Shown piece after piece: positions 2,068 to 39,698 of a stretch of 64,000 nucleotides of DNA. The notes beneath the pieces were generated by a model. The model had not been told where the DNA came from. It saw only the letters and a program-made list of their open reading frames with translations, and searched no databases. Position 1 is the first letter of the stretch. Every line of letters begins with the position of its first letter. The stretch is from Patiria pectinifera (taxonomy: Eukaryota > Echinodermata > Asteroidea > Valvatida > Asterinidae). The stretch covers positions 26,649,366-26,713,365 of the forward strand of contig CM057135.1 of NCBI GenBank assembly GCA_029964075.1, read 5' to 3'. Made by a program: the position numbers and the translations under genes.

Positions 2068-3060
2068 TTATTTTCGCAGGAGCATTATCGATACCGAGCA
2101 GCTGGTCATTGGCTCCACACCAGTTTTGCCGGTAATGCGCCGCACAGAAGCCGAGGCACCCAACGTAGGCATGGCAAGTTGTCCGTGCCATTCAAACAGA
2201 CAATCTCGTACACCTCCCAAGCGAGCGATCCCGCGGAATTCCTCGTGTTGGCTGCCGTAGCGGTTGTCGATGTACAGCACCACAGCGCCGGGTTTCATCT
2301 CTTGAAACACCTGTCGGAGCTGGTTCCCGTGGGTGGAGTCCCGTCTTATGAAGGCAGCCACGGGCGAGAATGACTTGATCATGGTGACGATGTCTGCTGA
2401 TCGGATTGCAGTCAGCCCGGTGGCGCACAGACAGGCGACTTTCGATTTCATGTCGCTCAGTAAGTATGTCATGTTCACTGGGAGTTTATCGGAGTTGGCC
2501 CTCTGTATGATGTCCCATTCGTTTTTCCAGTCCACGTACAGATCGAGTATCGTGCACTGGAAACGGGCAGCAGGAGTAAACAGCTTGCTGTCTTGAAGAA
2601 ACTTCACAACTCCAACCACGTCCGTACCAGGTCCCCCGCCGATGCAGCAGACGTGAAAGTGGCCTTGCCTCCCCCAGTCCTCAATGATGCATCTATGATC
2701 TGCGAGGGATTTCTGTAACCCACAGTAGACCATGTGGGATTGCATCATGAAGAAACGCGCGATGTATGCACGACGGTTGCTGACATTACTCCAATCGGGT
2801 CTCCTGCTTGTGTCCCTAAGACATTTTCGGTATATATCCGATATCGACTTCCAACAAGACCCTATTCCAGCATCGGTGTCGATGCAGCTGAAAAAGCTTT
2901 CGGCGGTGTCGCCAAAATGTTTTGCTGCATGTGCCACGTCAAGGTTTTCTAGTGTAACTTGAAGTAACTGATGCATATAAGACACAGACAGCGAGATTCC
3001 TTTCAGTGTTCGATTCAGTTCCTTGAACGCATCGGTCGAATATCCTTGAACACTGGCCAT
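2068..3060 (-). CDS. SAM-dependent methyltransferase-like protein, soluble form 1
   Basis: Single-exon gene, 330 residues. The open frame reaches 3102 on a TTG codon, but the first ATG is at 3060 and the TATA box at 3106-3113 would put transcription start near 3080, so 3060 is the start. The class I methyltransferase glycine motif CCIGGGPGTDVVG is at residues 138-150, followed by an acidic LDLY (172-175), a KSFSPVAAF segment (229-237) and MKPGAVVLYIDN (255-266). An N-terminal block DWSNVSNRRAY (89-99) is shared by all four paralogues. It ends with CSVSIMLLRK and has no membrane helix. Substrate unknown. Residues from about 95 on are nearly identical to the neighbour at 5781-6758; the first 95 are well diverged. 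Methylation activity is inferred from motif I only. Confidence 0.85.
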   Translation of the reverse strand: MASVQGYSTDAFKELNRTLKGISLSVSYMHQLLQVTLENLDVAHAAKHFGDTAESFFSCIDTDAGIGSCWKSISDIYRKCLRDTSRRPDWSNVSNRRAYIARFFMMQSHMVYCGLQKSLADHRCIIEDWGRQGHFHVCCIGGGPGTDVVGVVKFLQDSKLFTPAARFQCTILDLYVDWKNEWDIIQRANSDKLPVNMTYLLSDMKSKVACLCATGLTAIRSADIVTMIKSFSPVAAFIRRDSTHGNQLRQVFQEMKPGAVVLYIDNRYGSQHEEFRGIARLGGVRDCLFEWHGQLAMPTLGASASVRRITGKTGVEPMTSCSVSIMLLRK

Positions 3061-3105
3061 TTTGAACTCCTTTTCTATCTGCGAGTCATTCCAAGCCTGC
3101 AAACG

Positions 3106-3113
3106 TTTTTATA
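3106..3113 (-). promoter_or_regulatory. TATA box of methyltransferase-like gene 1
   Basis: TATAAAAA on the minus strand, its upstream edge 53 nt before the ATG at 3060. It rules out the in-frame TTG at 3102 as a start. Confidence 0.6.
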
Positions 3114-3164
3114 CTGAGCCCATTCCCTCATATCCCAAACCGCATCGCCGCGTTTCAACTTCTG

Positions 3165-3174
3165 GGGAAATCCC
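3165..3174. promoter_or_regulatory. Rel/NF-kB-like site
   Basis: GGGAAATCCC, a perfect match to the kB consensus GGGRNWYYCC, about 50 bp upstream of the TATA box of gene 1. Similar sites lie upstream of genes 2 and 4. Function is inferred from the motif. Confidence 0.45.
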
Positions 3175-3779
3175 GAGCCTCATTACAGAAATGACAAAAA
3201 ATATGCAATCGCCCACCATTCGCCTTTTGTAAGGCCAATGTCATTGCGTAGTCACTGTGTTTTTCCCTCCACCCATCCATGCAATACATGTACCATTGTT
3301 GTTTTACCTTTGATAGAGATTCCGATAGGATCCAAAGACCGTCTAATTTTATTGAGTTATATGATTGCAGATTTTTCCCCCCATTATTGCGGGTATGAGT
3401 GACCACAAATTCGCTGCCTTGTGGAGACTCACACACAATAGTGAACAAAACATTGTAAAGGTCTCCACAGGGCAATTTCTATAGATGAATAGGTCTCCAC
3501 AAGGTTTTCACGAAATAGATATATGGGTTTTACTCAAAAACTAGGAATTTCCAAGGTGTGTTTATTTGTCGCAAATGGAAGAGTTTTAGAAAAGGGATAT
3601 TAATTCCAAATTTCAGCCCAGGAAACTTATTCTGGTTAAAATAAGAGTATTTTGAAAATTCACTTTCAAAATTGAACACTTTACTACACGGGAACAAAGA
3701 AATGTCTCCACAAGGATACAAATTTTGGAATTGGTGAATATTAATCAAATAAGCCACTCATCACCTTCCCAATCCAATG

Positions 3780-4025
3780 CCGCGAGTGTGAAAAGAGACA
3801 TCCGCCGCGAGCTAGACTTCCTTCGAGGATTTATAGACCGTTTTGACTTGCGCCATGTAACTATTTCTGATGACAGTGTATGGCGGCTGGTGATGTAAGG
3901 CTAGGCGTTTGGGGGTTTCCCAAGCGAGAGCATATATTGAGTCATATCATTATGCATGATGTAAATGCTATGCATAATCAGAACAAACAATTCTCAATGC
4001 AGCTCCGAGAGAGTCGCGATGGATA
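3780..4025 (+). promoter_or_regulatory. relic promoter like that of gene 4
   Basis: Resembles the gene 4 promoter block 11390-11660 in order and orientation: a CTTCCTTCGAGG segment against CTTTCTTCGGGG, then AAGGCTAGGCGTTTGGGGG against AAGGCTATGCGTTTTGGGG, a kB-type GGGGTTTCCC (3912-3921), and TATGCATAATCAG against ATGCATAAATCAG. No methyltransferase-like ORF follows on the plus strand, so this may be the head of a lost paralogue. Confidence 0.4.
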
Positions 4026-4026
4026 A

Positions 4027-4409
4027 GGCCAAAAAAAAAAAGTCTCCGGTTTCTGGTATGGAGCTTGCCCAAAAAGTGGTGCGGCGACGCGGCTTTTTTT
4101 TTTTTTTTTACCTGACTTTTTTGCTTCAAATGTCGGCTGATGACTGCAAATGGTGCCGGACTAAACTTAGTGCAAAATGTACGGGAGTCCAGTGAGTCCA
4201 CACATGGAGGAATAAAGCTTATTCTCGATCATACCCCCATATAAAAACACGTTAAAACTGTGCTGCAGCAGAATTCCAGTCAAACCAGTGAGTTTGGCGG
4301 TTTTGAGACATCATCTTTGATTGAAAAAAAAACTTTTTCATTTTGCCGACGCGCAGGGCTACGGCGACGCGCGCGCATACCAGAAACCGGAGACTTTTTT
4401 TTTTTGGCC
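4027..4409. mobile_element. inverted-repeat element (383 bp)
   Basis: The ends are inverted copies of about 33 bp: GGCC, a run of A, then GTCTCCGGTTTCTGGTATG. Short ORFs around 3965-4200 and 4321-4680 read through it and are not genes. Confidence 0.65.
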
Positions 4410-4680
4410 TAAAGGGAAGTCTAGTAATGTGTGTTTATCCTCTCCACGCATGATTGCAATAACAACGTTGGGCGTCCGCAGGGGTGTCAATGGCAGAGGG
4501 TGGGGTGGGCAAATGTCCCCCGCCATGCACCCTCGAAAAAAAAGATAAATTGAGAACATGCCATAGAGAAAGTACAATGATTTTTGGAAATAATGTGCTT
4601 TGCCCCCCTCTAGAAACATCCTGGCGACGCCCAAGTCTCCATGTCCCAAAATGTGTGCCTGCCAATTTTAGCTATTAACT
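4410..4680. other. no gene seen
   Basis: Short G-rich and A-rich stretches without a supportable gene, between the inverted-repeat element and duplication copy B. Confidence 0.4.
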
Positions 4681-5745
4681 TATCGACACTGACAGCTAAT
4701 AAAACAGGTTGAATACAAGATAATAAGTGTGCATCTAAGTACGAAATAACATTTTATTTAATTCTTCGTAAATTGTATTTACATACAAATTGTACAAATT
4801 GTATTTACAATTTACATACAATATCACTTAATCGATGAGAAAATGCTGAATATGTTTTAGGTTAAAGTAAAAAGAACCTAAAAAAATTGTACCCAGAAGG
4901 CATGTAAGCAGTATCGAAACGAGGGGGACATCCCCCAAGCGGATGTCTGTGCCCCGACCCCCCAAATTGAAATCTTAAATTAAAAAAACATTACATTGCA
5001 CAATTAAAATAAACCGTTTCATTTGCATTTAGTTCCCCCTTGAAAAACTGATGCATCCCATGTGCCTCCCAAAAGTTTGACCTTATGGTTATGCCGCTTC
5101 GTCGAAGTGGAAAGACATTTTTTTTATAATGGTCTTTTATCATTTTCCACTCGGGAATGGATGACTATATTTACAATACGCCGTGATCACAGATTCATTA
5201 TGGGAATAGAATTTGAGATTCGAAATAACTGTGTCAATGTCAAACCGGTAAGAATTAACCTGACTTATAGAAAACTAGCAATACATACTAAAATTATTTG
5301 CAATATTTTTTATAGATACATGTACATGTACTTACGAGGATCCAGGGTCCAATAAACGAAGTAATGTCAAACTAGACAAATAAAATACAAATTCACAAGC
5401 ACCACGGTACTACCGTGTAGTGGCCTTTCTTATCATTTGTAAAAAGGTAAACATCCGGTAAGTTGTCTTACATTAATGTTATGTACAATGTAATTACAAT
5501 TTACGAAAAAATCTTAACTTGCAATTGACAATATACCGAATTTTATATTTGAATTTATTTATGTAATTTGAAATAATTCTCTATATCGCTCTACTTACAA
5601 AGCACCTGAAGCAATGAAAATCACAGTTTCTCCATCCAGTAAAGGTCACCAAAATATCAACCACAAAGTCAAAAGATATATGTGATAATTACGGCAGTTA
5701 TAGATTAGGCCTATAACAAGTTGATTTATCAAGAACAATGTGTCT

Positions 5746-5751
5746 TTTATT
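5746..5751 (-). terminator. polyadenylation signal AATAAA
   Basis: AATAAA on the minus strand, 30 bp beyond the stop codon of gene 2. The matching position in duplication copy A has lost the motif. Confidence 0.5.
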
Positions 5752-5780
5752 GTCAACCACCCAGATGACAGGATCCAGTG

Positions 5781-6758
5781 TCATTTTTGCAGGAGCATTA
5801 TCGATACCGAGCAGCTGGTCATTGGTTCCACACCCGTTCTGCCGGAAATGCCCTTTGTGGCCGAAGCCGACACAACCAAAGTAGGCACGTCAAGTTTTCC
5901 GTGCCATTCAAACAGACAATGTCGTACACCTCCCGAGCGAGCGATCCCGCGGAATTCCTCGTGTTGGCTGCCGTAGCGGTTGTCGATGTACAGCACCACA
6001 GCGCCGGGTTTCATCTCTCGGAACACCTGTCGGAGGTGGTTCCCGTGGGCGGGGTCCCGTCTTATGAAGGCAGCCACGGGCGAGAATGACTTGATCATGG
6101 TAACGATGTCTGCTGATCGGATTGCAGTCAGCCCGGTGGCGCACAGACAGGCGACTTTCGATTTCATGTCGCTCAGTAAGTATGTCATGTTCACTGGGAG
6201 ATCAGCGGAGTTGGCCCTCTGTATGATGTCCCATTCTTTCTTCCAGTCCACGTACAGATCGAGTATCGTGCACTTGAAACGGGCAGCAGGAGTAAACAGC
6301 TTGCTGTCTTGAAGAAACTTCACCACTCCAACCACGTCCGAACCAGGTCCCCCGCCAATGCAGCAGACGTGAAAGTGGCCCGGCTGCCTCCCCCAGTCCT
6401 CAATGATGCATCTATGATCTGCGAGGGAATTCTGTAACCCACAGTACACCATGTGGGAGTGCATCATGAAGAATCGAGCGATGTATGCACGACGGTTGCT
6501 GACAGCATTCCAGTTGGGTCTCGTGTTTGTGTCCCCAAGATGTTTTCCGTACATCACTGTTATCAACTGGACAAAAAGCCCTAGTGATAAATCGATGTCA
6601 ATACGTCTGAAATAGTTTTCGACGATGTCGACAAAATGTACTGCTGCACATTTATTTTTCAGAAATTCCCGCAAAGCATCTATTAAATCTTTATCTTTTT
6701 TAGCCAGTTCAGTCAAAACGGAAAGCGTTTTGACCTGATCACAATTACTGTGAGCCAT
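5781..6758 (-). CDS. SAM-dependent methyltransferase-like protein, soluble form 2
   Basis: Single-exon gene, 325 residues, starting at ATG 6758 (MAHSNCDQVK). It has the GGGPGSD motif (residues 135-141), an LDLY acidic segment and an MKPGAVVLYIDN segment, as in the paralogue at 2068-3060. From about residue 90 the two are nearly identical; before that they share only scattered positions such as HF.D....F..ID and RP.W..VSNRRAYIARFFMM. It ends in CSVSIMLLQK with no membrane segment. TATA box and Rel-like site lie upstream. It is divergent from gene 3, with 1.14 kb between the start codons. A SAM-binding fold is likely; enzyme activity and substrate are unknown. Confidence 0.85.
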   Translation of the reverse strand: MAHSNCDQVKTLSVLTELAKKDKDLIDALREFLKNKCAAVHFVDIVENYFRRIDIDLSLGLFVQLITVMYGKHLGDTNTRPNWNAVSNRRAYIARFFMMHSHMVYCGLQNSLADHRCIIEDWGRQPGHFHVCCIGGGPGSDVVGVVKFLQDSKLFTPAARFKCTILDLYVDWKKEWDIIQRANSADLPVNMTYLLSDMKSKVACLCATGLTAIRSADIVTMIKSFSPVAAFIRRDPAHGNHLRQVFREMKPGAVVLYIDNRYGSQHEEFRGIARSGGVRHCLFEWHGKLDVPTLVVSASATKGISGRTGVEPMTSCSVSIMLLQK

Positions 6759-6819
6759 ATTGTGAGCCCTTCTCAGTGAAAGGATTGCATGAAATGACGA
6801 TTCGTTGTAACTGTGTACA

Positions 6820-6827
6820 TTTTTATA
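6820..6827 (-). promoter_or_regulatory. TATA box of methyltransferase-like gene 2
   Basis: TATAAAAA on the minus strand, upstream edge 69 nt before ATG 6758, a spacing close to that in gene 4. Confidence 0.6.
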
Positions 6828-6908
6828 CGGACTGCATCGCCATCACGCGATGACTAAAACGTTATGTCTACGCGTTGCAGTTACGGAGCCCATTTCGCAA
6901 CATTATCT

Positions 6909-6919
6909 GGGGAAAACCC
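6909..6919. promoter_or_regulatory. Rel/Dorsal-like site
   Basis: GGGGAAAACCC (reverse GGGTTTTCCCC) fits the Dorsal-type GGGWWWWCCM consensus but misses the strict vertebrate kB consensus by one base. It sits in sequence homologous to the kB site of gene 1 (CTGGGGAAA context in both). Confidence 0.35.
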
Positions 6920-7898
6920 ATGTAATACAGATATAACACTATGATTCATCACTCTGTGCTGAGGGATGATGTTCAGATGTCAAGATCATAAATTATGGAC
7001 GTATGATAGTGTGTACATGCACGGGCTAATATATAGGCCTTAATGTGCTCAAGGGAGGCCTACAGCTACTTGAGCAAAAAAAGTCGAGTGAACTATGTCT
7101 ATTAATATGTTATATATTTTTGTCTTGGCGAAGGTATTTGAGGACTGGATTGAATGTGACCGGCTTAACCCTCCTTTTGTTTTATCAGTCACAAACAGTC
7201 AAAAATTCAATCCTGTACCCGTACCTTGCCTTTTACACAGGTAACTCACCAACGGCACTCAGATCATAATTCAAGGGGCGCCGTGACTATCAAAATAGAC
7301 AAAATCAGGCAACTGGTACTATTAGGCACAGCTGGCTTTATCAATCTTAATAAGAAAGGTGCTCCATACATTCGTAGAATAATTCAACAGTGGTGTGTCA
7401 ATATTATGACACCGTAGTCCACTCACCAAATTGAGCGCAGTACTCGATGTTGTCGTAATGAATGTAATGGTATATCAAATCTGGCGGTTGAAAATCATTC
7501 AATCACACACACAAAATGCATATGGTTCAGTTTTACTCTGCATTCTTAACGGAGAAAACTGTACACGTTTTCGTGAAGTAGGCTACACTGATCTTTGAAT
7601 GTTATTATGTGTGATTTCACAAACGCAGTTGGAAGTGGAACGGACAATATTGTTGATTATGTACTTTGTCATGCAATCTGGTAAAGAACATATTAATACA
7701 GTGCCGTTGGATCCAAAGTCCTGAATGTTAATGAACAACTATTAATAATATGAACGTAACTTTGTATCTCTGCACTAACTAGGCCTATGAACTTGATTAT
7801 GAAGCCATTCCGTCAGTGGTGCAAAAACGGAGAGCAAGCTTTTACAATCCCGAGTTTGCTTCTTTGATGACTAAGAATAAGATCGCAGAATCGTTAGA
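6920..7898. other. intergenic region between divergent paralogues
   Basis: Shared upstream region of genes 2 and 3. I found no clear TATA box or Rel-like site serving gene 3. Small ORFs at 7045-7417 lack any recognisable feature. Confidence 0.4.
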
Positions 7899-9242
7899 AT
7901 GGATTCACCTCAGGTCCATCATGCTGCTGACTTTGCCCGTGGTCTTTTGACGAAAGTCCTCGATGACCTTCTATCTCAAGTTGATGGGTCATCAAAGACT
8001 GACCGAATCAAAGAGTCGTTGGGAAGTATCCGGGAAATCTACCAAAAGAGACTCTCTCGTGCCTCGTCCCAGTATCGAACCGACTGGAATGATCCAGCCA
8101 ACCGCTGCGCCTATGTATTCCTGTACTTGCTACAGCACTGCCATCTTGTGTGCACCTCCCTTCAGATCAACTCCGAAGAAATCTTGACTGCTTGGCGGAG
8201 AAAAAGCAACTTGAAGGTGTGCTGCATCGGTGGAGGACCTGGATCGGACCTGGTTGGTCTGACTACCTTCCTCCATGAGAACAACATCTTCCCGTCTGGG
8301 CTGGAGTGTCTGGTCTTGGATCTGTATCCTAGCTGGGAAGACGCGTGGATGTCAATCTCGGAATACATACCATGCCCAGACAGAGTTGGTGTGGCTTACC
8401 TACCATGCGATGTTGTTAACGACACATTGGTTCTAAATGATGTACGGGAGTTCATCAAACAGGCTGACATGCTCACCTTTGTGAAATCTTTTTCAGCGGT
8501 ATCCGCTTTCTTCCGAAAAGACTCAAGGCGCGGCAATCTCCTCCGGTCGCTCCTCCGTGATATAAAGCCAGGGTGTTTTGTGCTGTTCATCGACAACGAA
8601 CACGTAAGCGACGTTCAATTTCAGCGGGAATTTGCATCCCGGGTTGGTCTGGAACTGGTATTTGAACGCCGTGGTGCACAAACTGTGCCAAGAGGTACGT
8701 ATTCACAAACCATAAAAAAGTATTGTCGGCTTCTGGAATGCCAACCAATGCGTACCTGTGATGTGATCATCCAACTGTTTCGCAAGAAGGTACCGGTGGA
8801 AGTTCTCAGAAGCACCACACCCGAAAGACCCTCCTCGTCCACAGCTCAACGCTCCAAGGCCCCACAGCATCCAAGTCACCAACATCGTTCCCAAGAAGTA
8901 GAGGCTGTCAGAAGCACCATACATAACAGACCCTCCTCGTCCACAGCTCGACGCTCCCAGGCCCCACCGCGTCCGAGTCACCAGTATCGTTCCCAAGAAG
9001 TAGAGGCTGTCAGAAGCACCATACATAACAGACCATCCTCGTCCACAGCTCGACGCTCCCAGGCCCCACCGCGTCCGAGTCACCAGTATCGTTCCCAAGA
9101 CTACTCATACAACTACCGTGAACCGGGGATACCGAGAAGCACCTCGCATGATAACGAGGGTTTGTCTTGGACAGAGGCCGGCATTATTCTTGGAGTTGGT
9201 GTTGGAGCTCTTCTCTTGATCAGTTTGTGGCGTAATCGTTGA
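7899..9242 (+). CDS. tail-anchored methyltransferase-like protein 1
   Basis: Single long exon, 447 residues. ATG 7899 has a good context (A at -3, G at +4) and an in-frame stop lies upstream at 7878. Motif I CCIGGGPGSDLVG spans residues 108-120; LVLDLYPSW (138-146), KSFSAVSAFF (196-205) and IKPGCFVLFIDN (222-233) follow the same order as in the minus-strand paralogues. The shared N-terminal block is TDWNDPANRCAY (61-72). After the fold's end (PMRTCDVIIQLFRKK) come three 34-residue Ser/Pro/Arg-rich repeats (300-401), then a hydrophobic helix at about 426-443 and a basic end, RNR. This predicts a C-tail-anchored protein with the domain in the cytosol. A basic tail after a modest helix suits mitochondrial or peroxisomal targeting, but that is inference. 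Confidence 0.88.
   Translation: MDSPQVHHAADFARGLLTKVLDDLLSQVDGSSKTDRIKESLGSIREIYQKRLSRASSQYRTDWNDPANRCAYVFLYLLQHCHLVCTSLQINSEEILTAWRRKSNLKVCCIGGGPGSDLVGLTTFLHENNIFPSGLECLVLDLYPSWEDAWMSISEYIPCPDRVGVAYLPCDVVNDTLVLNDVREFIKQADMLTFVKSFSAVSAFFRKDSRRGNLLRSLLRDIKPGCFVLFIDNEHVSDVQFQREFASRVGLELVFERRGAQTVPRGTYSQTIKKYCRLLECQPMRTCDVIIQLFRKKVPVEVLRSTTPERPSSSTAQRSKAPQHPSHQHRSQEVEAVRSTIHNRPSSSTARRSQAPPRPSHQYRSQEVEAVRSTIHNRPSSSTARRSQAPPRPSHQYRSQDYSYNYREPGIPRSTSHDNEGLSWTEAGIILGVGVGALLLISLWRNR
8796..9101 (+). repeat. three in-frame 102-bp coding repeats
   Basis: Units 8796-8897, 8898-8999 and 9000-9101 encode 34 residues each (core RPSSSTARRSQAP). Units 2 and 3 are almost identical at DNA level; unit 1 is older. 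The reverse strand of this array is also open (8703-9098), a by-product of the repeat. Copy number is probably variable. Confidence 0.9.
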
Positions 9243-10780
9243 TAAGACCTTCCTTTTAGACGTAGTAAGCACCGTGATCATCGCATTTTATTATGCATGT
9301 TGCCGTGTTCTTATTTTGTATGAAACGAATTTAGAAGAGCCTTCGGTTAAAAAGAGAAAAATATGTTGCTTCGGCGTCCGGATTGTGCATGTGAATCGAT
9401 TTTCTGGATTGTAAACACGTTTGTGTCGCTCTCGCTGAAATTTCATGGAGAAAGGCTTTGAGAAAAATCTGCAATCTGCAACCTTTGATACATTTTGACC
9501 TTGTTGCCTCGACCAATCAGAACGCCGCATTTAGCCCATGTGACAACCTCATTAGCATAAAACGAGGAGCCGGCCCCTACCATGTCCAGTATTTTTATAG
9601 GGGTGTTTCAATGTGTGAGGGACGTTAGTATAGATTAAAAATATTCATTTTAATATTTCATGTATCAATTTGTATGTAATCACGTATTTATACATTACAA
9701 TGCGGTATACAATGGAAAAAAAGATTTTGTTTCATTGTAGGATTTGTATGTACATAAACTTATGTTTATATGTAAAGGCCTACAACAATTCTTGGGAATT
9801 GATTTCAATTTAAATAAAATGTATAATAAGGTCATAATAAAGATAATAAGAATTAATGAAGTAATAAGCGATACAAAATATACGATACAAAAAAAGTGTC
9901 GAGAAATGAAAAGTTCCACAACTCATGGATTTCAGATCAACATAATTGATGGAAAATTTCACCTATATCTCAAAATGCCCAAACCTTATTTAAGGTCACC
10001 CTGCAGATTCTGATTCTCCGAGGTCAACAGAACAGGAATCTATCAAAACGTCGGGTGTCTGGAAGAAGGTCGTAAGGCCGAAAAATGAGTCCGACAAAAG
10101 GTCAAATTCGGGTTTTTCGGGTAATCGATTAAGCTTGGAAATGTCTTTCATTTGATATACATATTGCCCTACTTGAGAGGAAATTTAGATTTGGTTAAGA
10201 TATCCCTCACTTGAACTGAACTGTTTGTGATAGAATTTGTGACTTTAGGATGACTCTGGTCACAAAGATATCAATTTTAAATCACTGTAAAAATCATAAT
10301 TCGTATGTGGGACTGCCAATAGTGTTAAAACGTGAACTTGGGTAAAGATTATTCAAAACAGGGAACATAAAATCCTGTTGTTCTTGATTCGTTAAGCATT
10401 GTGCGTAATCAGTATGAAATGCATGAAGTGTATCAGTTATTCATAACACATGAAAAAAAAAATAAGTGGAAACTATCACGATGAACATTGTTGTATGCGA
10501 ATTTAATTGAGAGCAGATCAAAAATGTACAACTGTACTTAATAACATTTTGGTTATATTGTTAATTTTAAACAGTGTGTATGTCTGCAATTATTGAGGTC
10601 CTAAGAGTTGTCAACTAGCGGCCAATTTCCCAACATTGGAACAACCCCACAGATAACATGATCGTACCCTACAGCTGGTTTCCCATGTCTTCAAATGTTT
10701 TGATATTTAAAATAAGGCTTATAATATTGGATGTTGCCCTTCACCGACATATTTTTTTATAAAACACTACATTGTCACGA
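9243..10780. other. no gene seen
   Basis: AT-rich sequence downstream of gene 3. AATAAA near 9813 could serve as its polyadenylation signal but is about 570 bp away. I see no supportable coding region. Confidence 0.4.
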
Positions 10781-10787
10781 GTGATTG

Positions 10788-10998
10788 GGTCGGCTGGCTT
10801 ATTCGGATCCGATACTAACAGCGGGTACAGCTGAATGTATTTTATTGTGAGAAAAAATCACAAACTACTCGGGTTGGACTCGAACCCACGACCTCCTGTC
10901 GCTTACTTGTGCAGATACCACTCGACCACCAAGCTTGACCGGGGTCGGCTGGCTGATTCGGATCTGATATTAACAGCGGGTACCGCTGATTGTATATC
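10788..10998 (-). repeat. tRNA-derived SINE-like sequence between direct repeats
   Basis: On the minus strand about 10941-10866 is tRNA-like, of Ser/Leu type: a TGGTGGTCGAGTGG A-box and GGGTTCGAGTCC B-box. It is bracketed by two direct copies of a 50-bp sequence (GTCGGCTGGCT.ATTCGGATC...AACAGCGGGTAC) at 10788-10840 and 10943-10998. Confidence 0.6.
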
Positions 10999-11389
10999 AT
11001 TTGCATCATGTAATATATCCACGTGGTTGTCGTGGATGATGAATAAGGCCCCTGCAAAGTTGCAAACTGTTCCTTTTTTCCTTTAAAAAATCAGTCCCAC
11101 ATCTATTTTCTTAAGATGCAGTTCTAGACTGGAAAACAAGAAGGAGATTAAGGCTCAAAAAGAACAGTTTTACCCGAATCAAGTCATTTTTAGAGGGCCG
11201 CGAGATTTTTTCTTCATCAAATACACGTGTATTGGGGATTAAAAAAAATTGGAAATTCCCATGAATTATTATAAAATCTGAGAAATGTCGTTCAATAAAA
11301 AAAATCGAGCTGCTTGTATGATGAAAATGTATGCCATTAGGATATACTCACAAGTTAAATACATTTAATATTTGTAACTATCGGCACTC
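10999..11389. other. no gene seen
   Basis: AT-rich sequence between the SINE-like block and the gene 4 promoter block. I see nothing supportable. Confidence 0.4.
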
Positions 11390-11675
11390 CATACCCGGAG
11401 AAACGAGACAGCCAACGCTGGTCTTTCTTCGGGGTTTTGGACCGTGTGTTGACTTTAGCAATCGTACGTTTTTATGGGAGCCTTGATGTTTAACGGCAGG
11501 AGACAAGGCTATGCGTTTTGGGGTTTCCCCGTGCGACAGTGAGCAATAATACTGCTCACCGTCGCACATTATGTTTCATCACAACACGGCGGATGCATAA
11601 ATCAGCACTATATATGTAACGCAGCAGTGAGTAAATCATTAACTGGCCGGCTTTTGTTGGAGGCTCAACTACAGC
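11390..11675 (+). promoter_or_regulatory. promoter region of methyltransferase-like gene 4
   Basis: Contains a perfect kB-type GGGGTTTCCCC at 11520-11530 and TATATAT at 11609-11615, 67 nt before ATG 11676. A hairpin (TGCGACAGTGAGCA...TGCTCACCGTCGCA) follows the kB site. The block resembles 3780-4025. Confidence 0.5.
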
Positions 11676-11692
11676 ATGGATCTGCATTGGAT
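11676..11692 (+). CDS. proposed 17-nt first coding exon of gene 4
   Basis: Encodes MDLHW plus two bases of codon 6, ending at a perfect GTAAGT donor. It is preceded by a TATA box at the same spacing as in gene 2. Gene 3 also begins MD. Confidence 0.55.
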
Positions 11693-14600
11693 GTAAGTGT
11701 AGTATTTTCTTTGCTGATTACATTGTGTAATGCGTGAGTGGTCCAAGTGGTTATTATTAGCAAATCTACAAGCAAACTGATTTAATGTAAAACCATATGT
11801 GAATATCCAACATGGATAAAAGAAACACAATCTCTCCAGTAAATGCGAAATTCATATGCCTACAATATGCTGACAAAACAAGTGTACAATGCCAAACCAG
11901 CACGAGTAGCACTGACGCTTAGCCCGGCTGCGTCTGGCCGTACAGTACTATCGCAAGCTCTGTAGTACGGCCAGACGCTCAATGCTTCCCCACAGACTGA
12001 ATTTTTTTTCACTCTGATGTAGCGATTTTGCTACAGATTTTGATCGAGATTATCTTCTCGTCCAGGACAGAAATATCCAAAGTTAAGGTTCCTAGTCGTA
12101 GAGGAACTCATACCTTTTTGAAAAAACGTTCTTTGGTCCCAATATTTTCATCCATCTGGCCAAAAGACGACTTTCAGTCATCATCTTCCACAAATATCGT
12201 CCTGAAAATGTCCTCCATGCGATTTCAAAATGGCGGCCGCGTTGTAATGTATGCATTATGCGGGCGTGCTTGGGCAAGATAATGAATATGCATCATAGTT
12301 TATGACGTTTGTCGGGCGCGCGGCGCGGCTGGCCATACAAACACGAGGTCATGAACTAAATAATGCATATTCATTATCTTGCCCAAGCGCGCCCGCATAA
12401 TGCATACATTACAACGCGGCCGCCATTTTGAAATCGCATGGAGGACATTTTCGGGACGATATTTGTGGAAGATGATGACTGAAAGTCGTCTTTTGGCCAG
12501 ATGGATGAAAATATTGAGACCAAAGAACGTTTTTTTTTTGAAAAGGTATGAGTGAAAAAAAATTCAGTCTGTGGGGAAGCATTGAGCGTCTGGCCGTACT
12601 ACAGAGCTTGCGATAGTTCTGTACGGCCAGACGCAGTCGGGCTACACTGACACTATGACAGTTCCTTAATTACCGTCCTTTTCATCAGACGTCCAGCCTT
12701 TTCATCATGATGTACCGCGAAGCGTTTAAACAAAATTTTTAAAAGATTCTTTAAATCCCAACGTGCAACCTTTCTTTGAGGCTTGAGCCAATATCAGTGG
12801 TACCCCTATTATTTATTGACTTCATTGTGACTTTAGAGGTAACAATTCCAGCCCAATTTTTTTTTGTAGTTTTGCAATTGACTGAAAATCAGTAAATCTC
12901 AAAATAAGACCCAGTCCGAAACGGGTCTTGTTGTCAGTGGTTAAGGACGCGGCTGGTACAGACATTACGAGGGAGGAGCGTGATGGTCTGTACGTGGTTC
13001 ATGATCATTCGATTAGCCCGGCTGTCGTAGCTAACCCGTCTGCCTTTACCCCAGTCGATCCGGTTGAGCTACTCCAACACACCCAATATGCGTGAGGTCG
13101 GAGGGTAGCTGCACACATAGAGGTTACGACATTGAACTTTCGAGTATTAATAGATGTGAGCATTATCGAACCAGGAAGTCAGAATGACAATTCCCCCTAA
13201 TGATTGCACAGTCCTAAACGGAATACGCTGCTCCGATGGAAAAAATGGGGATGTTTTTCACCTCGAAAATGTAAGTCGTCAACTCAATACGACTTACATT
13301 TACGGCGTGAGCAAAACCCACGAGGTGGAAAAAACCAATACGAGTCGTATTCTGGTTGGTACTTTTTTTTTTAGAATGCTTTGTCGAGTGGAGTGATGCA
13401 GGTTTCTTCCTATCAATTTGCCACACAACTTAAATGTTTTTGTTGCATAAAACTTGCCCGTTGAAAAGGGCACTAGCTGCTGTAAAAAACAGGCTTATAC
13501 AGCTCAACAAACCAAGAACAAAATGTAATGTTTACTTTCTGCAGATGAAATTAGAACCGTGTGCGAATATTTCAAGAGGTTTGATCTTTTTAGGACAATT
13601 ATTCCTTGTCACCATCAAATTTTCTTTGGCAGTCTGGTAAAGGTTTATGATTTGGAGAAACATTATTCGTACTCTCAGTTCCCATTTCCTGACTGGCTAT
13701 GCCTGGTTGTACATGTAACAGTACCGATAGTAATGTATCTCAAAAGAACATAACGTGCACAGTGATTATTAAAATGATAATAATTCTACTTTTTAAAACA
13801 AAGAAAAATCATAACGTACATTCAATAGAGAAAAATGAACAAGGTAAATTAAACCAACAATCACGACGGACAGAACCCATCGAACAAACTAGTATTGTAT
13901 TAAGATTCATTCTCTTAGTCTCTTTCAGTTTGAGAACACCAGACTTGTATTCGAGTCACCAAACATTGAGTCCGAGCCACCTCTCGAGTCTGACTCTCCC
14001 GAGTCCGAGTCACGAGTCACAAAGGTCGAGTCCGAGTCTGAGCCACGAGTTACCTTTAATAGATATCGGAAATACATTTTGAGGTACTGCTAAAACCTCA
14101 CAGCGTAAAAGAATATCCCCCCTTTTGACAGCTTTTCTCTAATTTAATGAACTAGAAATACATCTATATCATGTCAAATCAAGCAAGCCACCAGGTTCTG
14201 GAAAGGATAATCTGGTAGAAACAAATCAAGCAAGCCACCAGTTTCTGGTAGAAACACTATCAAGCTTGTATTTAACGCAATGTCAAGTGTGGGCGCTGGG
14301 ATACATGTATTGATACATTGATTTCCCAAACCGACATATAGGAAACAATTAGCCAGCCGCACTCGATGTGTATGTACAGTACTTAGATGCGTTTCATCTG
14401 CACCGCATGTCACTTGCTCAGGAGATGATCCTTCAAAATAATTGGTAATTTTGGTCGAGTCCCGAGTCACGTAGGTCGAGTTCGAGTCCAAATCCGACAC
14501 CGAAGGGTCGAGTCCGAGTCCGAGTCATTTGTCATCGTGACTGGAGTCCAAGTCGAGTCACTGAAAATGGGACTCGACTTGGAGTCCGAGTCACGAGTCA

Positions 14601-15867
14601 TACAAGTCTGGTGAACACTGACTATATTACCAACCTGGTGTATTTTGTGTCACCCTACAGTGAACGCTTTAAAACGGAAAAACATGAAAGGGCAGGAGAA
14701 TTTTTCCGTAGCGTACTGACAGACGTGTTGGACGACCTCCAAGACCAGGTTCCCAGCTATTTCGGCGCAGCATTCAAAAGTGATGAAGTCAAACAATCAC
14801 TAAGAAGCATTTCTCAGGTGTACAAGAAGGGGCTATCAAGTCCCTACATTCGGTCTGACTGGAATGATGCAGCCAACCGTTGCGCTTATGTGTTTCTGTA
14901 CCTGATGCACCACTGCAACATCGTGTTCTCATCCCTCCAAAGCAGTCTTTCCGAGATCTCAGCAGATTGGCGTTACAAATACAACTTGAAGGTTTGCAGC
15001 ATCGGGGGCGGGCCTGGATCGGACCTACTTGGCCTGACCACCTTCCTTCGTCTGAACCAAATGTTCCCGTCTGTGCTGAGGTGCCTGGTCCTGGATCTGT
15101 ACCCCAACTGGAAAGAAACCTGGGACAGAATCTACAGTTGCATTCCCGGGGACTTCAAGGTGGCCTACCAGAAGTGTGACGTCGTCCGAGACACAACAGT
15201 TTCTACCGAAGTGCGGGACTTCATCCGAGAGGCCGACATGCTTACCCTCGTGAAGTCGTTCTCGGCTATGTCTGCTTTCTTCAGAGCCTCCTACCAAAGT
15301 GGATATTTCCTTCGCAAAATTCTTCGCGAGCTGAAGCCGGGCTGCTACGTGCTGTTCATCGACAACAACTGCAACGGGGACAACCAGTTTCAGCAGGACT
15401 TCGCGTCACGAGTTGGTCTCGAAATAGTGTACGAATCCCGCGGTATCAAAACCGTACCATCCGGTGCGTACTCGCCCACCATCAGAAAGTACTGCCGCCT
15501 TCTTGACTTCAGTCCCATGCGTAGCTGTGACGTCAACATCCAGTTATTCCGCAAAAAGTGCCCGGCGATACCCAGTCTGAATATCAACTACGAGTTTAAC
15601 AGCTATTCTCCACATTCCCAGAAACGTCATGACCCGCCTTTGATATTTTCATCCGCCAAAAGACCTGCAGAATTTCCCCAACGCACGCCAGCTAGATTTC
15701 CCGAAACCACAGGCCTTCCCCAACGAAGAAAAACCATTACACACCCTCGTGTTGCCCCAGAACCGTCAAGGGATCCACGTGGCCCCAGCCCATTTCAGGT
15801 TGTGCTGATAGTAGGCGTTTTAGCTGTACTAGTTATTGGTTCTCTTGTACGGAATTACCTAAAGTAA
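11676..15867 (+). CDS. tail-anchored methyltransferase-like protein 2 (two exons)
   Basis: Proposed exons are 11676-11692 and 14661-15867, giving 407 residues. The long ORF opens only on GTG 14611, inside a transposon end, and has no ATG before the conserved core, so an upstream exon is needed. ATG GAT CTG CAT TGG AT followed by GTAAGT at 11693 supplies one; joined to the acceptor CACCCTACAG at 14660 the phase fits (AT+T). The protein carries GGGPGSD, LVLDLYPNW, KSFSAMSAFF and LKPGCYVLFIDN in family order, a Pro-rich linker, and a C-terminal helix (FQVVLIVGVLAVLVIGSLV) followed by RNYLK. Its closest relative here is 7899-9242. The linker lacks that gene's 34-residue repeats. The main exon is solid; the first exon is inferred. 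Confidence 0.75.
11910..12654. mobile_element. long foldback element with target-site duplication
   Basis: Element 11920-12644 begins TAGCCCGGCTGCGTCTGGCC and ends with its inverse. Arms are about 11920-12293 and 12363-12644; the left arm has about 90 bp more than the right. Flanks CACTGACGCT (11910-11919) and CACTGACACT (12645-12654) form a 10-bp duplication with one mismatch. A smaller hairpin (GGCCGTAC...GTACGGCC type) sits inside each end. It lies in the proposed intron of gene 4. Confidence 0.85.
12655..13932. other. no gene seen (gene 4 intron)
   Basis: AT-rich intronic sequence. A small inverted repeat, AATGTAAGTCGT...ACGACTTACATT, is at about 13267-13302. No coding region is supported. 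Confidence 0.4.
13933..14618. mobile_element. GAGTCC-rich inverted-repeat element, copy 1
   Basis: Both ends carry inverted CACCAGACTTGTAT.CGAGTC and are filled with degenerate GAGTCC/CGAGTC hexamers. The right end overlaps the GTG that opens the gene 4 frame, which shows that GTG is not the start codon. Copy 2 is at 50751-51366. Confidence 0.75.
14661..15867 (+). CDS. main exon of gene 4
   Basis: Starts after CACCCTACAG and runs to TAA at 15865. It contains the whole methyltransferase-like domain, linker and tail anchor. Confidence 0.85.
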
Positions 15868-20574: not shown

Positions 20575-23500
20575 GTAAGCAGATGATGTTCGCTGAACAT
20601 TTGACGATCCAAAATACTGCTTTAGGACTCGTCTTGGTAGTTAGAACTTTGTAGGAAACCTGCTAGCCCCATAAATGTGGCCAATTTACCGGACTACCTC
20701 TGTAAAGACGGCCACACTGGCACCATCTTAAGTGATGATTAGGATAGACGCTATTTTTTGCAATTTTCACTTTCAGACTTTGCTGCTAGTTTATTTACAT
20801 TTTGTACGTGATCGCACCTTAGTAAATGCTAGCAATGAAAACACATATGCGGTTCCTCAAAAATATACTTTTCATGTAATTCCCAGAGGAAATTTTGAGG
20901 CTCGCTGTTGTGCACGTTTGAGTGTAACTAAATTCCAACACGGCGATGTTAACGGGCAATGCTTGCTGGTAGCATGACCTGCGGGTCATCATGTTAGCTT
21001 TTAGTCACGCGGTGCGCGCCCGGCTCGGCGGCTGTTGCTTGACTTTATAATCCTTAGTGTACTGTGTGCCCTCATGCGCATATGGACCCTCATGCTTACT
21101 ATGCACCGAGGATTACTCAAGCAACAGCCGCCGAGCCGGAGGCGCGTGCTGCGTGACTGACAGCTAACAAAAACAACGTCCTACTCGTCACTTGAGATGG
21201 GGCCGGGACAGCCTTCATTACGGAGGTAGTCAAGTAACTTAGCCACATTTATAGGGCAAGGAACCTACATTCTCCACTTGAGGGAGATTGACAAGGAGGC
21301 TTACAATGTAGTTCTGACCTTATGACCTTTGGTCTGGATCTTTGTATTAAAGGGAAAATACAACATTTGCAAACATCAAAAAATAAAACTACCAAATCAT
21401 TTTGAAACACCTTGCTGGACTGTTAGTGAATAACAGTGTAAAGCATCCTGTAAAATCATGGCACCTGGTATACTGTCATTTTCAAGAAAAGTGGTATTTT
21501 TGTATCAATTTCCAACGCTGATCGGCCGATCAGCGTTGGAAAAAACTGGCTTTTTTTTTCAAATACTGGCCCCAATTGACAATCGCACTTGTTTGCAATC
21601 GATTACAAACCTATGAACGGGTACGAGCCAGCTAGACTGGTTCCCTGACCTTACTATTCCCCAATGTATGTAAACTACTCTGTTTCTTCTTATATGGAGT
21701 CAGGGAACCAGACTACAGGAAAATGATTGTTTTTCTTGGTTTTATAGCATTTTCGAACCTAAAACCTCAAAAAAGTCAGTGTAACTATATTTGCTATATA
21801 TTTCCAACTCCCCAGTTCCATCCATTTCTGAAAATTACAGCAAAAGCAAATGATGTATATTCCCTTTAAACAGGATTTTTCCCTTTTTTCCCCCAGGTCT
21901 TAAATTAGCTGAGGGGGATGATGGCAGTGCACTGCTGCGCGTCAGTCACCTGCCACCCATCGTGCTGAACTTCCAGTACCCCGAGGACTACCCATCCAAG
22001 TCGGCACCCTCCTTCACTCTGTCCTGCAAGTGGCTGAGTGTGGATAAGGTCAGGCAGGACAACTTGAAGTTTCTGTAACTTCTCGTGAATTGTTTAAACT
22101 GTGGCCAATGATAACAGAGTTGTATTAAGTCCATCACAAGCCAAGCACTAGTCAATCGCTAGTCAATCACAAGTCAATCATAAGTCAATCACAAGTCAAT
22201 CACTAGTCCAATTGCAAGTCAATCACAAGTAAATCACAAGTCAATGAAAAGTAAATCACAAGTCAAGCACAAGTAAATCGCAAGTCAATCACAAGTCAGT
22301 CACAATTCAATCACAAATATTCACAAGTCAAAAACAAGTTTGATCACAAGTCCATCACAAGTCCATCACAAGTCCATTACAAGTCCATCACAAGTCAATC
22401 ACAAGTCCATCACAAGGCAATCACAAGTCAATCGCAAGTCAATCGCAAGTCAAGCACAAGTCAATCACAAGTCAATCGCAAGTCAATCACAATTCAAATC
22501 ACCAGTCAAGGACACGTGGCGTGAGACCGGTTGACTTGTGATTGACTGTTGTAATTGACTTGTGAGGATTCGACTACGACTCGGTATGATTCAGGAGGAA
22601 TCACATTCAATTGTGTACTTTGACTCAGAGTGTGTAGGATCTGGCAGTCCAAGTGTGGCTCCGTGCATTTTACAGTTAACAAACTTTTTGACCTATGTTC
22701 AGAGCCGAGTGACAGCATTTCCCTTACAGTGATTGTCTAAATTACCAATTTCCAAGTTGAAGGATACCTACAATGTATAGTGTAACATACATTTAAGATG
22801 TGCACGTTTTGTTAATTATCATGTGAAACTTATGAAGACAGTGGTACGGGAACTGAACGCCTTCAGTCGCCTGTAACTTTCAAACTTTCAAAACTAGAGG
22901 GTGAAGTTGAATACAGACAGCAGTGTTTTCAAACTTTCTGGACAACTGACAAGGACTACATACCATTCAATAAGCATTCACAAAAACTCTTGCATTTTAT
23001 TTGAATATTTTACTCTTTTGACCTTAGTGTAGTGTTTAAAGACACGTGTGAATATTGGAGTTGATATCATATATTCTGCTCCCAAATTTCTCCAGTTGTC
23101 TCAGCTTTGCTCCCATCTGGATCGCATCTGGGATGAGAACCGTGGCGAAGTCATCATCTTTCAGTGGACTCAGTTCCTTACCGACGAAAGCCTTGGCATC
23201 TTGGGCATCCAATCCCCCCTGTCGTTAGACTTCCGGAGGGTCTTGCGTTCGAACTCGGTGGAGGCGGGCGGGTCCTCCAGAGACGAAAGAACGGACCAAG
23301 CTTCAGGAAACGATTCGGAAGACCAGAACAAGAGAACTCCTCTTTCCGATAGCGAGAGAGACCCAAATCTGAGCAATTTAGATCCCCGCGCCGTCCAAGA
23401 CATCGGCAGTGGGAGTTTACTGTTACTGACGCTGATAGAGCACAACAGGGCAGAGCGCCAGAGGGTCTTCGATAACTCGTTGTACAGTTGCCTGGTGTGC

Positions 23501-26500
23501 TTCTGCGAGAAGCTGGGCTCCTACTGCATCAACTTCCAAGGGTGCAACCACGTCTACTGCAAGGACTGCGTCAGGGGATACTTCCAGGTTCAAATCGAAG
23601 AAGGGAATGTGAAGGCTCTAAACTGTCCTGATACGGAGTGCGACTCGCCTGCAATGCCTTCACAGGTATTGCTTTTTTTTTTCTTTGGTCAGACAGTTAT
23701 AACAGAGGATCTAATCCTTTTCAGGCCAGGGTTTCAGATTCCGTAATAGCTTCATTTCCAAGAAGTTGGGTATAGGTTTTGATCACATGATGTCAAAGTG
23801 TCATGTGACTATCCAGTTTACCCATGATTGGCCATCACTGCAGTATAGGCAAGCGTTTGATTAGCAACCACATTGTTTCGCGTTAGCTAGATAGAAGGGC
23901 TTATTTTCATGGAAAATAACTGAAATGATAATTGATAAATAATATTTGATAAAGTAAAATTGTATAATGGTCACTTCCTGTGCTGAGCTTAGGAGACTGA
24001 AGAAACCTTTATAGGAGAGGAGAAATATTCAGATTTAGAAGTAAGAAGACCTTGGAATAATACTCCAGGAAAGAACAAATCAACATCAAGACGGGACTGA
24101 AAAACAACACACTATCATAAACCCAAGGCACCTTAGCCCTCTAGTGGTGACTTTTCTGAAATTTCTAATGTATCCTTTAGGTGCGTGAATTGGTCGGCAA
24201 GGAGTTGTATGCCACCTACGATCGTCTCCTGCTGCAGCGCACCCTGGAAGGCATGGACGACATTGTCTACTGCCCTCGTTTGTCCTGCCAGTGTCCAGTC
24301 ATGCGCGACAAGGAGTGCACCATTGCTGTGTGCTCTGCCTGCGCGTACCCTTTCTGCGTGAAATGCCGGATGGCATACCACGGTGTGTCTCCTTGTAGAC
24401 TAAGGAAAGGTGTGTACGACCCGATACTTGTTAAAGAAATAGTCCATCATTTGTAATTTGTGCATTTTGTTCGTTTGAAGCAACAAAAGTGCTCAAAATC
24501 TAAAGGAGGGTACTGAACAACTAACCTGATGAAGTTTCAGCTCGGTTTCAGCTGTATATTCTGAGAAAAACAGCATTCTAGGATCTCAATTTTAAATCAA
24601 AAGTTGCTGAATCATGTTTTGAATTGGGCCTCAATTCAGCGTCCGAGACACGTTCTCACTGAGCCGATTGCAGCTACGCGATGTCGCGCACTGATCCGAC
24701 GAATTTTAGCAATCGTGCGCGCTGGTGCGCCGTGCCAGTGCTTGCGCGCGCTTCGCCTAATAACAAAATGAGCTACTAATTTAAATTTCCTACGGTGGGT
24801 CTTAAGAAGCACCGTTGGAAGTGCCTTCTTTCGTTGATTTCTTCAAAATGACAGCTTGTCAGAAAGAATAATTTCACAGGGAGTTTAGTCCCCTTACTAT
24901 TTTTCAACCAAGTATGTTTTTCAACAATAATTACACCAGTTACTTTTCGGATAGCTGCACATGATGGACTATAGCTTTAAGTGTTATGGGCTTCCCTCTC
25001 AATGGTAAGAAAGAAATAATAATAATAATAATAATACAGAATATTTATAACGCGCTCTACCAAGATCACAGCGCCTAACAAAAGGGGGGAAAAACACAGA
25101 GGGGTCGGGTCAATAGAACAACAACAAAAACAACATTCAAGGGGGGAGGGATACAGGCATTAAGAGAGATCTGGGAAAAGGAAGGTCTCCGCCTCTCTCA
25201 GATCAACAGGAAGCGTTGGGGGAGGCCATTGGGAGAGACATTCAAAGGCATTGCTGACAATGCCTGACGCTCACGCGAAGACTCAATGGCTTTGTGCGCA
25301 TTCTCAATAAAATAACTTGTGCGAACTTTGCGCTATACACGTGTGAACCAGTATGCCTATATGCAGTGAGCCCCATCCAATAGGCTCTCAAAAGTGGTAC
25401 GAAAGCGCCCTCTCTTGATTGCGCAGGGAGTATAAAGTAAAATCATTTTCGGAGCCCCCAAGTGTAATGAAATATAAGGATGCATAAGTAGGAGTCGATC
25501 TTTTTCGGCTCATGACAACGCTGTGATATTGAAGTTGTACTTGACAACACTGTGATTTTGAAGCTATACCTGGTGTCATAAATAATGAAAGGTTTGCGGA
25601 AACACCATGTGGCAATAATTTCTCTACTAAGAGAATGGTTCTGAAAAGAACCAGAGATACAAACCCGACGTTCCGGTCAGTATGCTCTGACCGTCTTCAG
25701 GAGAGTGCCTAAACTCTAAGAAAGTGAATACTTAAGTAGCAAAAGGCAAAATCAATGAAGTGTGAAGTTGCATCCTGTGTGGATGCCAAGAAGACGGGAT
25801 CCTAGAGCAAGCTTGGTGCCCACTGAAGTGGAACAGTAGGATTGCGGTGTCAGTAGAGGGAGGACCTAGGGTATAGGAGACCCATCAGTCTAAGGTGGTA
25901 GCTGAGGACCTAAAGGTATAGGAGACCCAACAGTCTAAGGTGGTAGCTGAGGACCTAGGGTATAGGAGACCCATCAGTCTGGAGAAGTGGGAGCCAGATG
26001 TCATTGAGGTGAAACCCGATGTCTTGCGGAACTGTGTTGTCAGAGCATACTGACCGGAACGTCGAGTTTATACCTCTGGTTCTTTTCAGAACCATTCTCT
26101 TAGTTGAGAAATTATTCGCACATGGTGTTTCCGCAACCTTTCATTATTTAGTATCTCCACCATGCAAAGCCTCAAATCTTACTGGTGTCATAACATGAAA
26201 ATAACTTTGTCATGACAATAACTTTATACATGCATATGATTGGATATATTGAAAGACCACTAGCAAAAAAGGGGTTACTGGCACTGTTAGTACATATTGA
26301 ACGATGGTATGGTGTTGCAGGAGTAGCAGATGCGAACAACAAACTTTTTTTTTTTTTATTTTCAACAGAAGAGATATTGAAGCTGCGGAAGGAGTATGAA
26401 GAAGGGAGCGTGGAGGCGAGGGCCAAGCTGGAGCAGCATTTTGGCAAGCGTCTCTTCCGAGAGGTCCTGGAAGAGTTTGAGTCCCAGAAATGGAAGGAGG

Positions 26501-38575: not shown

Positions 38576-38651
38576 GTACTGTTTGCTGTAAAAAATTGTC
38601 ACCCAAACCTTCGTTGTCCAAATATCAGTAGTGGGAGACTGTTTTGTCGGT

Positions 38652-39698
38652 ATGATCCAGACTTCTACCATGGGAGCATTTGACAACGAGACGGGCGGGA
38701 GGTCATCGGCTCTGGTGGCGGTCCGGTCTTCGTTCATGGCTATCATCATGCTGTCGGCTATACTTGGAAACGCTTTGGTCCTACTAGCCCTGGCAAACTA
38801 CCGGATTCTACGCAGCAAGACCACCGTGTTCATCATCAATTTAGCGGTGGCCGACTTGGCTGTCGGCCTGACGGGCATGCCGCTCGTCCTCGGCTCCAGC
38901 ATCGCCGATCGCTGGATCGCTGGCGAGGCTTACTGCACCGTAAACGGTATTACAAACATGATATTCTGCGTGGCCAGCATGCTGACTCTAGCGGGGATCG
39001 CCCTGGATCGCTACTATGCCATCGTGCACCCGTTCCGCTACCCGGAGTTCATGTCGTCGCGCCGTGTGGCCGTGATTGTTGGCTGGGTCTGGCTGGAGCC
39101 GCTTGCCCTGGGTATGTTGCCTGTGGTCACGTCCTGGTCCAACTACAAGTACTTCCACAACGAGTACATCTGCACTGTTGATTGGGGTTACAGTGCCAGT
39201 TTCTCCTGCACCGTCTTTGCTGTGGGTTTCTTCGTTCCTCTCGCCATCATGTGTTTCTGTTACTTCCACATCCTGATGGTGGCCCGCAAACACTCTCGGA
39301 AGATTATCGCCATGGAGGCTCTGGGTTCCAGCGAGTGGGCCGTGGCGACCCGTCGGGCCAGGCAGCTCAAGCGAGACGCCAAGGCGGCCTTCATGCTTCT
39401 CATCCTCATCGGTAACTTCATGGCCTGCTGGCTGCCTCATTTCGTCGGCATCCTGTGTTTGGTCTTCACCAGGGACGAGTGCCCGTTCTCGGACGCTGTG
39501 TTCACGACGACCACCTGGCTTGCCATGGCCAACTCGGGGCTGAACCCCGTCATCTACGGCTTGTTGGACAGGCGGCTACGACAAGCTGTGGGTCTGATCC
39601 TACGGTGCAAGATGAGCCAAAGGCTGCATAGTCCCACCCATTTGGCGATAACCAGACAATCACAAGCAATGGATACTGGCAGACCTAGGGAACCTTGA
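38652..39698 (+). CDS. orphan class A (rhodopsin-like) GPCR
   Basis: Intronless coding region, 348 residues from ATG 38652. The frame opens on GTG 38631, but the first ATG is 38652, and ATG 38670 (M7) has a perfect ACCATGG context and may be used. Seven membrane helices with class A landmarks: GN40 in TM1, NLAVAD68L in TM2, C95 and DRY 119-121 in TM3, C174 in ECL2, P196 in TM5, C259-W260-L-P262 in TM6, NPVIY 298-302 in TM7, and C319 in helix 8 as a possible palmitoylation site. N12 (NET) is a likely glycosylation site. Position 3.32 is Asn102, not the Asp of amine receptors. The TM5 end (YFHIL.VARKHSRKI) and TM7 (TTTWLAMANS) recall the GPR21/GPR52/GPR161 orphan group. Ligand unknown. Confidence 0.93.
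   Translation: MIQTSTMGAFDNETGGRSSALVAVRSSFMAIIMLSAILGNALVLLALANYRILRSKTTVFIINLAVADLAVGLTGMPLVLGSSIADRWIAGEAYCTVNGITNMIFCVASMLTLAGIALDRYYAIVHPFRYPEFMSSRRVAVIVGWVWLEPLALGMLPVVTSWSNYKYFHNEYICTVDWGYSASFSCTVFAVGFFVPLAIMCFCYFHILMVARKHSRKIIAMEALGSSEWAVATRRARQLKRDAKAAFMLLILIGNFMACWLPHFVGILCLVFTRDECPFSDAVFTTTTWLAMANSGLNPVIYGLLDRRLRQAVGLILRCKMSQRLHSPTHLAITRQSQAMDTGRPREP

Follow-up and report, generated by a model that had tools for sequence, protein, structure and literature searches.

Four paralogous genes in the window

The window, a stretch of 64,000 nucleotides of Patiria pectinifera DNA (26.65-26.71 Mb of the contig called C7 here, in an assembly of 613 Mb), carries four related genes, A to D, that very probably encode methyltransferases dependent on S-adenosylmethionine (SAM). 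An earlier note had proposed these four paralogues from the letters alone, and open frames were found at all of the claimed places (Table 1). A four-way alignment showed the motif blocks described there in identical order in A, B, C and D, and mostly invariant. By blastp and tblastn, identity was 79% over 301 amino acids (aa) for A and B, the pair on the minus strand, and 60% over 295 aa for C and D, the pair on the plus strand. Identity across the pairs was 33-35% with E values of about 1e-47 to 3e-39, which excludes a chance likeness of the four genes. No fifth copy was found inside the window by tblastn with the four genes as queries, which returned only insignificant rows and a common GAGTCC-rich repeat.

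The coding cores had been described as intronless. A, B and C each have their ATG in the same exon, but in D no in-frame ATG stands ahead of the core and the exon most likely starts at 14661, after the pyrimidine-rich acceptor TTTTGTGTCACCCTACAG. An upstream exon is therefore needed for D; none was found. Two related GAGTCC-rich repeats were located at 14449-14634 and 51180-51371, the first directly ahead of the D exon, where it lengthens the open frame of D. The product of C consists of a helical N-terminus (about residues 1-100), the methyltransferase core (about 100-299), a repeat-rich linker and a hydrophobic C-terminal segment.

Table 1. Positions and properties of the four paralogues and their associated features in the window (PF11312 scores refer to whole proteins)
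Feature	Position	Strand	Details
Paralogue A	2068..3060	-	330 aa, single coding exon, no C-terminal tail; ATG at 3060; PF11312 21.3 bits, E 1.8e-4
TATA-box-like TATAAAAA	3106..3113	-	46-53 bp upstream of the ATG of A; putative, by eye
Paralogue B	5781..6758	-	325 aa, single coding exon, no tail; ATG at 6758; PF11312 21.4 bits, E 1.7e-4
TATA-box-like TATAAAA	6821..6827	-	63-69 bp upstream of the ATG of B; putative, by eye
Paralogue C	7899..9242	+	447 aa; ATG at 7899; PF11312 23.0 bits, E 5.5e-5
Tandem repeat in linker of C	8806..9100	+	102-bp (34-codon) unit, 2.9 copies
Hydrophobic segment TEAGIILGVGVGALLLISL, then WRNR, C-terminus of C	9171..9227	+	mean Kyte-Doolittle 1.99 over 19 residues; possible tail anchor
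Paralogue D	14661..15867	+	coding exon behind predicted 3' splice site; PF11312 23.7 bits, E 3.4e-5
Hydrophobic segment FQVVLIVGVLAVLVIGSLV, then RNYLK, C-terminus of D	15793..15849	+	mean Kyte-Doolittle 2.79; likely tail anchor

The family across the genome

A protein search of the genome with A gave 25 matches, 24 of them without an internal stop, and pseudogenes were rejected on this ground for the main copies. In total, the genome was found to hold 23 loci whose core is open, besides three fragments (L024, L025 and C5:15438717); the 23 loci are of common descent. When the most divergent member, L023, served as the query, the same 23 genes were recovered together with L024 and one further fragment, and L025 was not. 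Two members were incomplete in the frames read: L020 is cut short at 265 residues, and a start is missing from L013. Seven genes form a first cluster at 26.640-26.665 Mb of C7 (L004, L018 and L003, then A, B, C and D), which runs past the edge of the window, its first three members lying ahead of the window start, at a distance of no more than 10 kb. Eight genes and the fragment L024 form a second cluster at 40.084-40.154 Mb of the same contig, and members outside both clusters are located on C1, C3, C5, C11 and C14. In a maximum-likelihood tree, A grouped with B and L003 (100/100), and L005, L006, L007, L009 and L010 formed another group (100/100); L023 had the longest branch. Eight of the 20 inner branches were well supported and nine were left open.

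Inspection by eye placed a splice acceptor within about 12 bases ahead of the ATG in 13 of 22 members, for example TTTTGCTTTTGCAG ahead of GACATGG and TTGTTTCACAG ahead of GATGG, so the coding part forms a single exon, which follows a first exon that is probably non-coding. Retroposed copies were rejected in view of these acceptors and the many copies in tandem; the tandem order and the acceptors favour DNA duplication, as had been proposed for the growth of the cluster. New copies would arise by tandem duplication, and gene conversion would have made them partly alike again. Between A and B, four 40-codon blocks of the core had 90-97% amino-acid identity, with a synonymous divergence of 0.03-0.04 in three of them and 0.12 in the fourth. 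At the C-end, identity fell to 72% and synonymous divergence rose to 0.22; the corresponding values for the N-terminal block were 35% and 0.40. The poorest 120-codon stretch held 3 of the 40.7 synonymous differences, a value reached in none of 5000 permutations. Because of this low synonymous divergence and the permutation result, the core of A and B is best read as a product of gene conversion (or partial duplication), with a divergent N-terminus in B.

The core is under purifying selection in C-D (dN/dS 0.23) and several other pairs. When dN was compared over 15 chosen pairs, the N-terminal part exceeded the core in 14 (the exception was L009-L010), and, among the 12 pairs for which the tail gave a value, the tail exceeded the core in 11 (the exception was L007-L010), these tail values being rough as the tails align poorly. 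High dN/dS ratios were seen at the N-terminus of A-B (1.16), at the N-terminus and C-end of L013-L017 (1.15 and 1.02) and in the core of L014-L016 (0.78).

The ends of the proteins differ between copies. In C and D a few residues, some of them basic, come after the hydrophobic segment. The tail of D has the highest 19-residue Kyte-Doolittle mean of the family and is the only one that stands clear; L015 also ends in a hydrophobic segment (2.02), and the model of C has a helix at residues 426-446, near its C-terminus. Judged from these features, D probably sits at the membrane via its tail, and for C the chances are about even. The hydropathy of the C tail alone is not decisive, and confidence in a membrane position of C was lowered, since a core segment of L018 reaches 2.12. 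In L007, L009 and L010 the C-terminus reads CCPQACTIL, in which a CaaX-type box is preceded by two more cysteines; we take it to follow the prenylation rule for such boxes. In L005 a similar box is followed by 21 more residues. Such variable tails would place some copies on a membrane, by hydrophobic segments in C, D and L015 and by CaaX-type ends in L007, L009 and L010. Other copies, A and B among them, would remain soluble.

Family assignment and predicted fold

The earlier note had described methyltransferases of a family it did not recognise. The SAM-site motifs and the predicted class I fold agree with the first part of this description, but the family is not wholly unknown, as 22 of the 23 members match Methyltransf_34 (PF11312; profile length 304, curated cut-off 26 bits), the only Pfam family found in them at E <= 0.05. 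The four window genes scored below the cut-off. Because of these scores, 21.3-23.7 bits, the window genes are called a divergent branch near PF11312, as judged from sequence, and not filed members. L022 (36.6 bits) and L020 (27.9 bits) are above the cut-off, and 20 members scored 18.2-25.9 bits. Residues 1-299 of C alone gave 24.5 bits and D without its tail 25.6 bits; A also matched COG6_N at E 0.11. The PF11312 matches run collinear with the profile at its positions 17-236, which takes them from the helical N-terminus to roughly strand 5 (L022 residues 38-157 to profile 17-137, L020 97-228 to 84-236, D 101-234 to 85-234). With the glycine loop of L022 masked, PF11312 was still first (15.3 bits, E 0.012), and the portion after the loop alone gave 16.4 bits (E 0.0054). 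A genome-wide search with PF11312 at E <= 0.001 gave no match, but 14 controls were equally silent, so absence is not shown by it.

In the part of PMC5307852 consulted, PF11312 is listed as DUF3115 and tied to EC 2.1.1.312, the 25S rRNA (uracil2843-N3)-methyltransferase, and BMT6 is given as the enzyme for U2843 of yeast in an excerpt of a review (PMC7694415). In the open-licence literature no paper was found under 'Methyltransf_34', and PF11312 or DUF3115 only in PMC5307852; among the titles and abstract beginnings listed for echinoderms and methyltransferase expansion, none concerned the present family. Sequence searches of the PDB gave no row for C, three for the four-gene profile and one for the 23-gene profile, all weak and unrelated. 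NCBIfam gave two rows, both far below cut-off, and nothing useful was found in viral contigs and prokaryote genomes (four-gene and 23-gene profiles) or phage records (C).

Structures were modelled for full-length C and for its core (residues 1-299) and compared by Foldseek, as had been suggested. A Rossmann class I methyltransferase was obtained, although confidence in the models was low. In both, the strands and helices follow the Rossmann beta/alpha order, strand 1 leads into a glycine-rich loop and strand 2 ends with an acidic residue. The GGGPG loop and this residue (D141), as well as the Asp after strand 3, are kept in all 23 members, so that the SAM-site motif set is unbroken throughout the family. 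Low model confidence and the lack of a meaningful PDB sequence match would fit some other Rossmann-like fold with a chance glycine loop; however, the strand order, the PF11312 matches and the methyltransferases that head the structural rows make this very improbable, and we hold it very likely, from sequence and models, that the family consists of methyltransferases. Seven cysteine columns (C residues 70, 81, 108, 137, 170, 226 and 287), kept in 18-23 of the 23 members, possibly have a metal or disulfide role.

Among solved structures the core model came nearest to METTL17, a mitoribosome small-subunit assembly factor, aligned over residues 1-299 including the N-terminal helices. METTL17/Rsm22 is described, in an excerpt of PMC9892005, as a gatekeeper that acts by steric hindrance in mitoribosome assembly and carries an Fe4S4 cluster. 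The present proteins might likewise be catalytically silent RNA-binding assembly or scaffold factors of methyltransferase fold. We consider this improbable, as a SAM-site motif set kept in every member would not be expected unless SAM binding were selected for, and no row for PF09243, the METTL17/Rsm22 family, was obtained in six members at E <= 10 (filters on), nor in any of the 23 at E <= 0.05. Moreover, yeast Rsm22 itself methylates mitochondrial tRNAs in vitro according to part of PMC8171064, which also notes an OB-fold motif, so the likeness is no argument for silence. The genome's own METTL17 is encoded separately, on C13, where it was matched in pieces. That also speaks against this alternative; identity of the family with METTL17 itself was rejected for the same reason.

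Among the best structural rows were also xanthosine, histamine, RedM and 4VPMT2 methyltransferases, which would suit small-molecule enzymes of specialised metabolism that make lineage-specific metabolites or methylate lipids or isoprenoids at membranes. Tandem expansion is typical of specialised metabolism, and the family has expanded to 23 copies, many of them in tandem clusters; a hydrophobic substrate would fit the membrane tails. We regard small molecules as rather unlikely substrates all the same. The Bmt6 and METTL17 leads both point, by analogy, to RNA, which we put at slightly under an even chance of being the substrate.

Our overall reading, held with about half of full confidence, is that of class I SAM-dependent methyltransferases forming an animal branch distantly related to the Bmt6 type (PF11312). 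SAM would bind in the loop that joins strand 1 to the helix after it. The acceptor of the methyl group would be a nucleobase in an RNA, and the helical N-terminal part, which is more variable between copies than the core, would help to hold this RNA.

Several observations weigh against this reading. Twenty-one of the 23 members, including all four window genes (2-5 bits under as whole proteins), lie below the PF11312 cut-off, as does the family consensus (23.8 bits), and the most divergent member, L023, has no Pfam match at all. Much of the profile score is carried by the glycine loop, masking of which lowered L022 from 36.6 to 15.3 bits, and the N-terminal piece of L022 alone gave no PF11312 match. 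Confidence is low in both structure models. Query TM-scores lie at 0.31-0.48 and rmsd at 5.5-14.4 A among the 50 Foldseek rows listed, and METTL17 tops the list of the core model only, being absent among the 50 rows listed for the full-length model. A housekeeping rRNA enzyme would not usually come in so many copies or with such varied tails, and the L018 core segment mentioned above is more hydrophobic than the tails of C and L015. Finally, the whole-protein dN/dS of A-B is 0.89, from which A and B could be under relaxed constraint.

Neighbourhood, significance and comparison with known systems

The tail of L006, in the second cluster, tracks its neighbours L007 and L010 to about C7:40,096,900 and again from about 40,099,883. 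The insert of about 3 kb between these points (L029:6900-9770, which is C7:40,096,900-40,099,770) holds three death-domain exons, of which the first and second matched PF00531 with 27.5 and 50.0 bits and the third is 89% identical to the second. By eye, the donor in the L006 tail and the acceptors and donors of the death-domain exons are all phase 1. A methyltransferase-death-domain fusion protein from L006 is possible on this sequence; a separate gene is as possible, because the first death-domain exon has its own ATG. The proximity may also be chance, as the genome is rich in death domains: 595 PF00531 candidates were found and all 150 that were scored were above cut-off. We also considered, with little confidence, that a Bmt6-type RNA methyltransferase has turned into a fast-diversifying, partly membrane-anchored effector set in innate defence or cell-death signalling, with the core kept by gene conversion and both ends diversified. 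In or beside the second cluster, frames of a Mutator-like transposase, a homing-endonuclease-like protein (PF05551) and a fibrinogen-C protein were noted (L030:5370-6785, L030:7457-7855 and L035:8882-9697).

Elsewhere in the window, nested inverted repeats occupy 11920-12644, with arms at 12121-12296 and 12360-12535 (98% complementary) inside arms at 11920-12014 and 12550-12644 (98%), and are probably a mobile element. An Rfam tRNA match of 41.3 bits at 27135-27207, not reported by ARAGORN, is perhaps a tRNA-derived element. A rhodopsin-type receptor in a single frame was found at 38592-39692 (PF00001, E 4.8e-61). Together with the death domains and METTL17, this receptor points to an animal genome; no COX1 match was obtained from the assembly. 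The frame at 23033-23743 has RWD (22.7 bits, cut-off 22.8) and RING-finger (16.9 bits, cut-off 27.3) matches, both below cut-off, and presumably resembles an RNF14-type E3 ligase.

New here are the anchor-like and CaaX-type tails, the acceptor ahead of the ATG in many members, the gene-converted-looking core of A and B and the death-domain insertion in L006. If these proteins are RNA methyltransferases, this is an animal with 23 copies of an enzyme type of which the characterised member modifies a single yeast rRNA site, and several copies may be linked to membranes. The part consulted of a 2022 paper gave the enzyme for m3U4530 of mammalian 28S rRNA as the only rRNA methylating enzyme then unidentified (PMC9240639). 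Animal relatives of the Bmt6 type would be candidates for an enzyme of this kind in animals that have them, a bearing that depends on the spread of the family among animals.

Compared with known systems, the family shares 7-19% identity in structural alignments with histamine methyltransferases, RedM, other class I small-molecule enzymes and those that we take to be SABATH-type, and it has no Pfam match to the families of these enzymes at E <= 0.05. It differs from METTL17/Rsm22 in that no OB-like part follows residue 299 in the model of C; the Fe4S4 cluster is a feature of METTL17/Rsm22. The likeness to yeast Bmt6 is that of the PF11312 profile match, a link through the profile and not through the Bmt6 sequence, and in contrast to Bmt6 and PF11312 the present family numbers 23 copies in one genome, some of them with membrane-anchor-like or CaaX tails.
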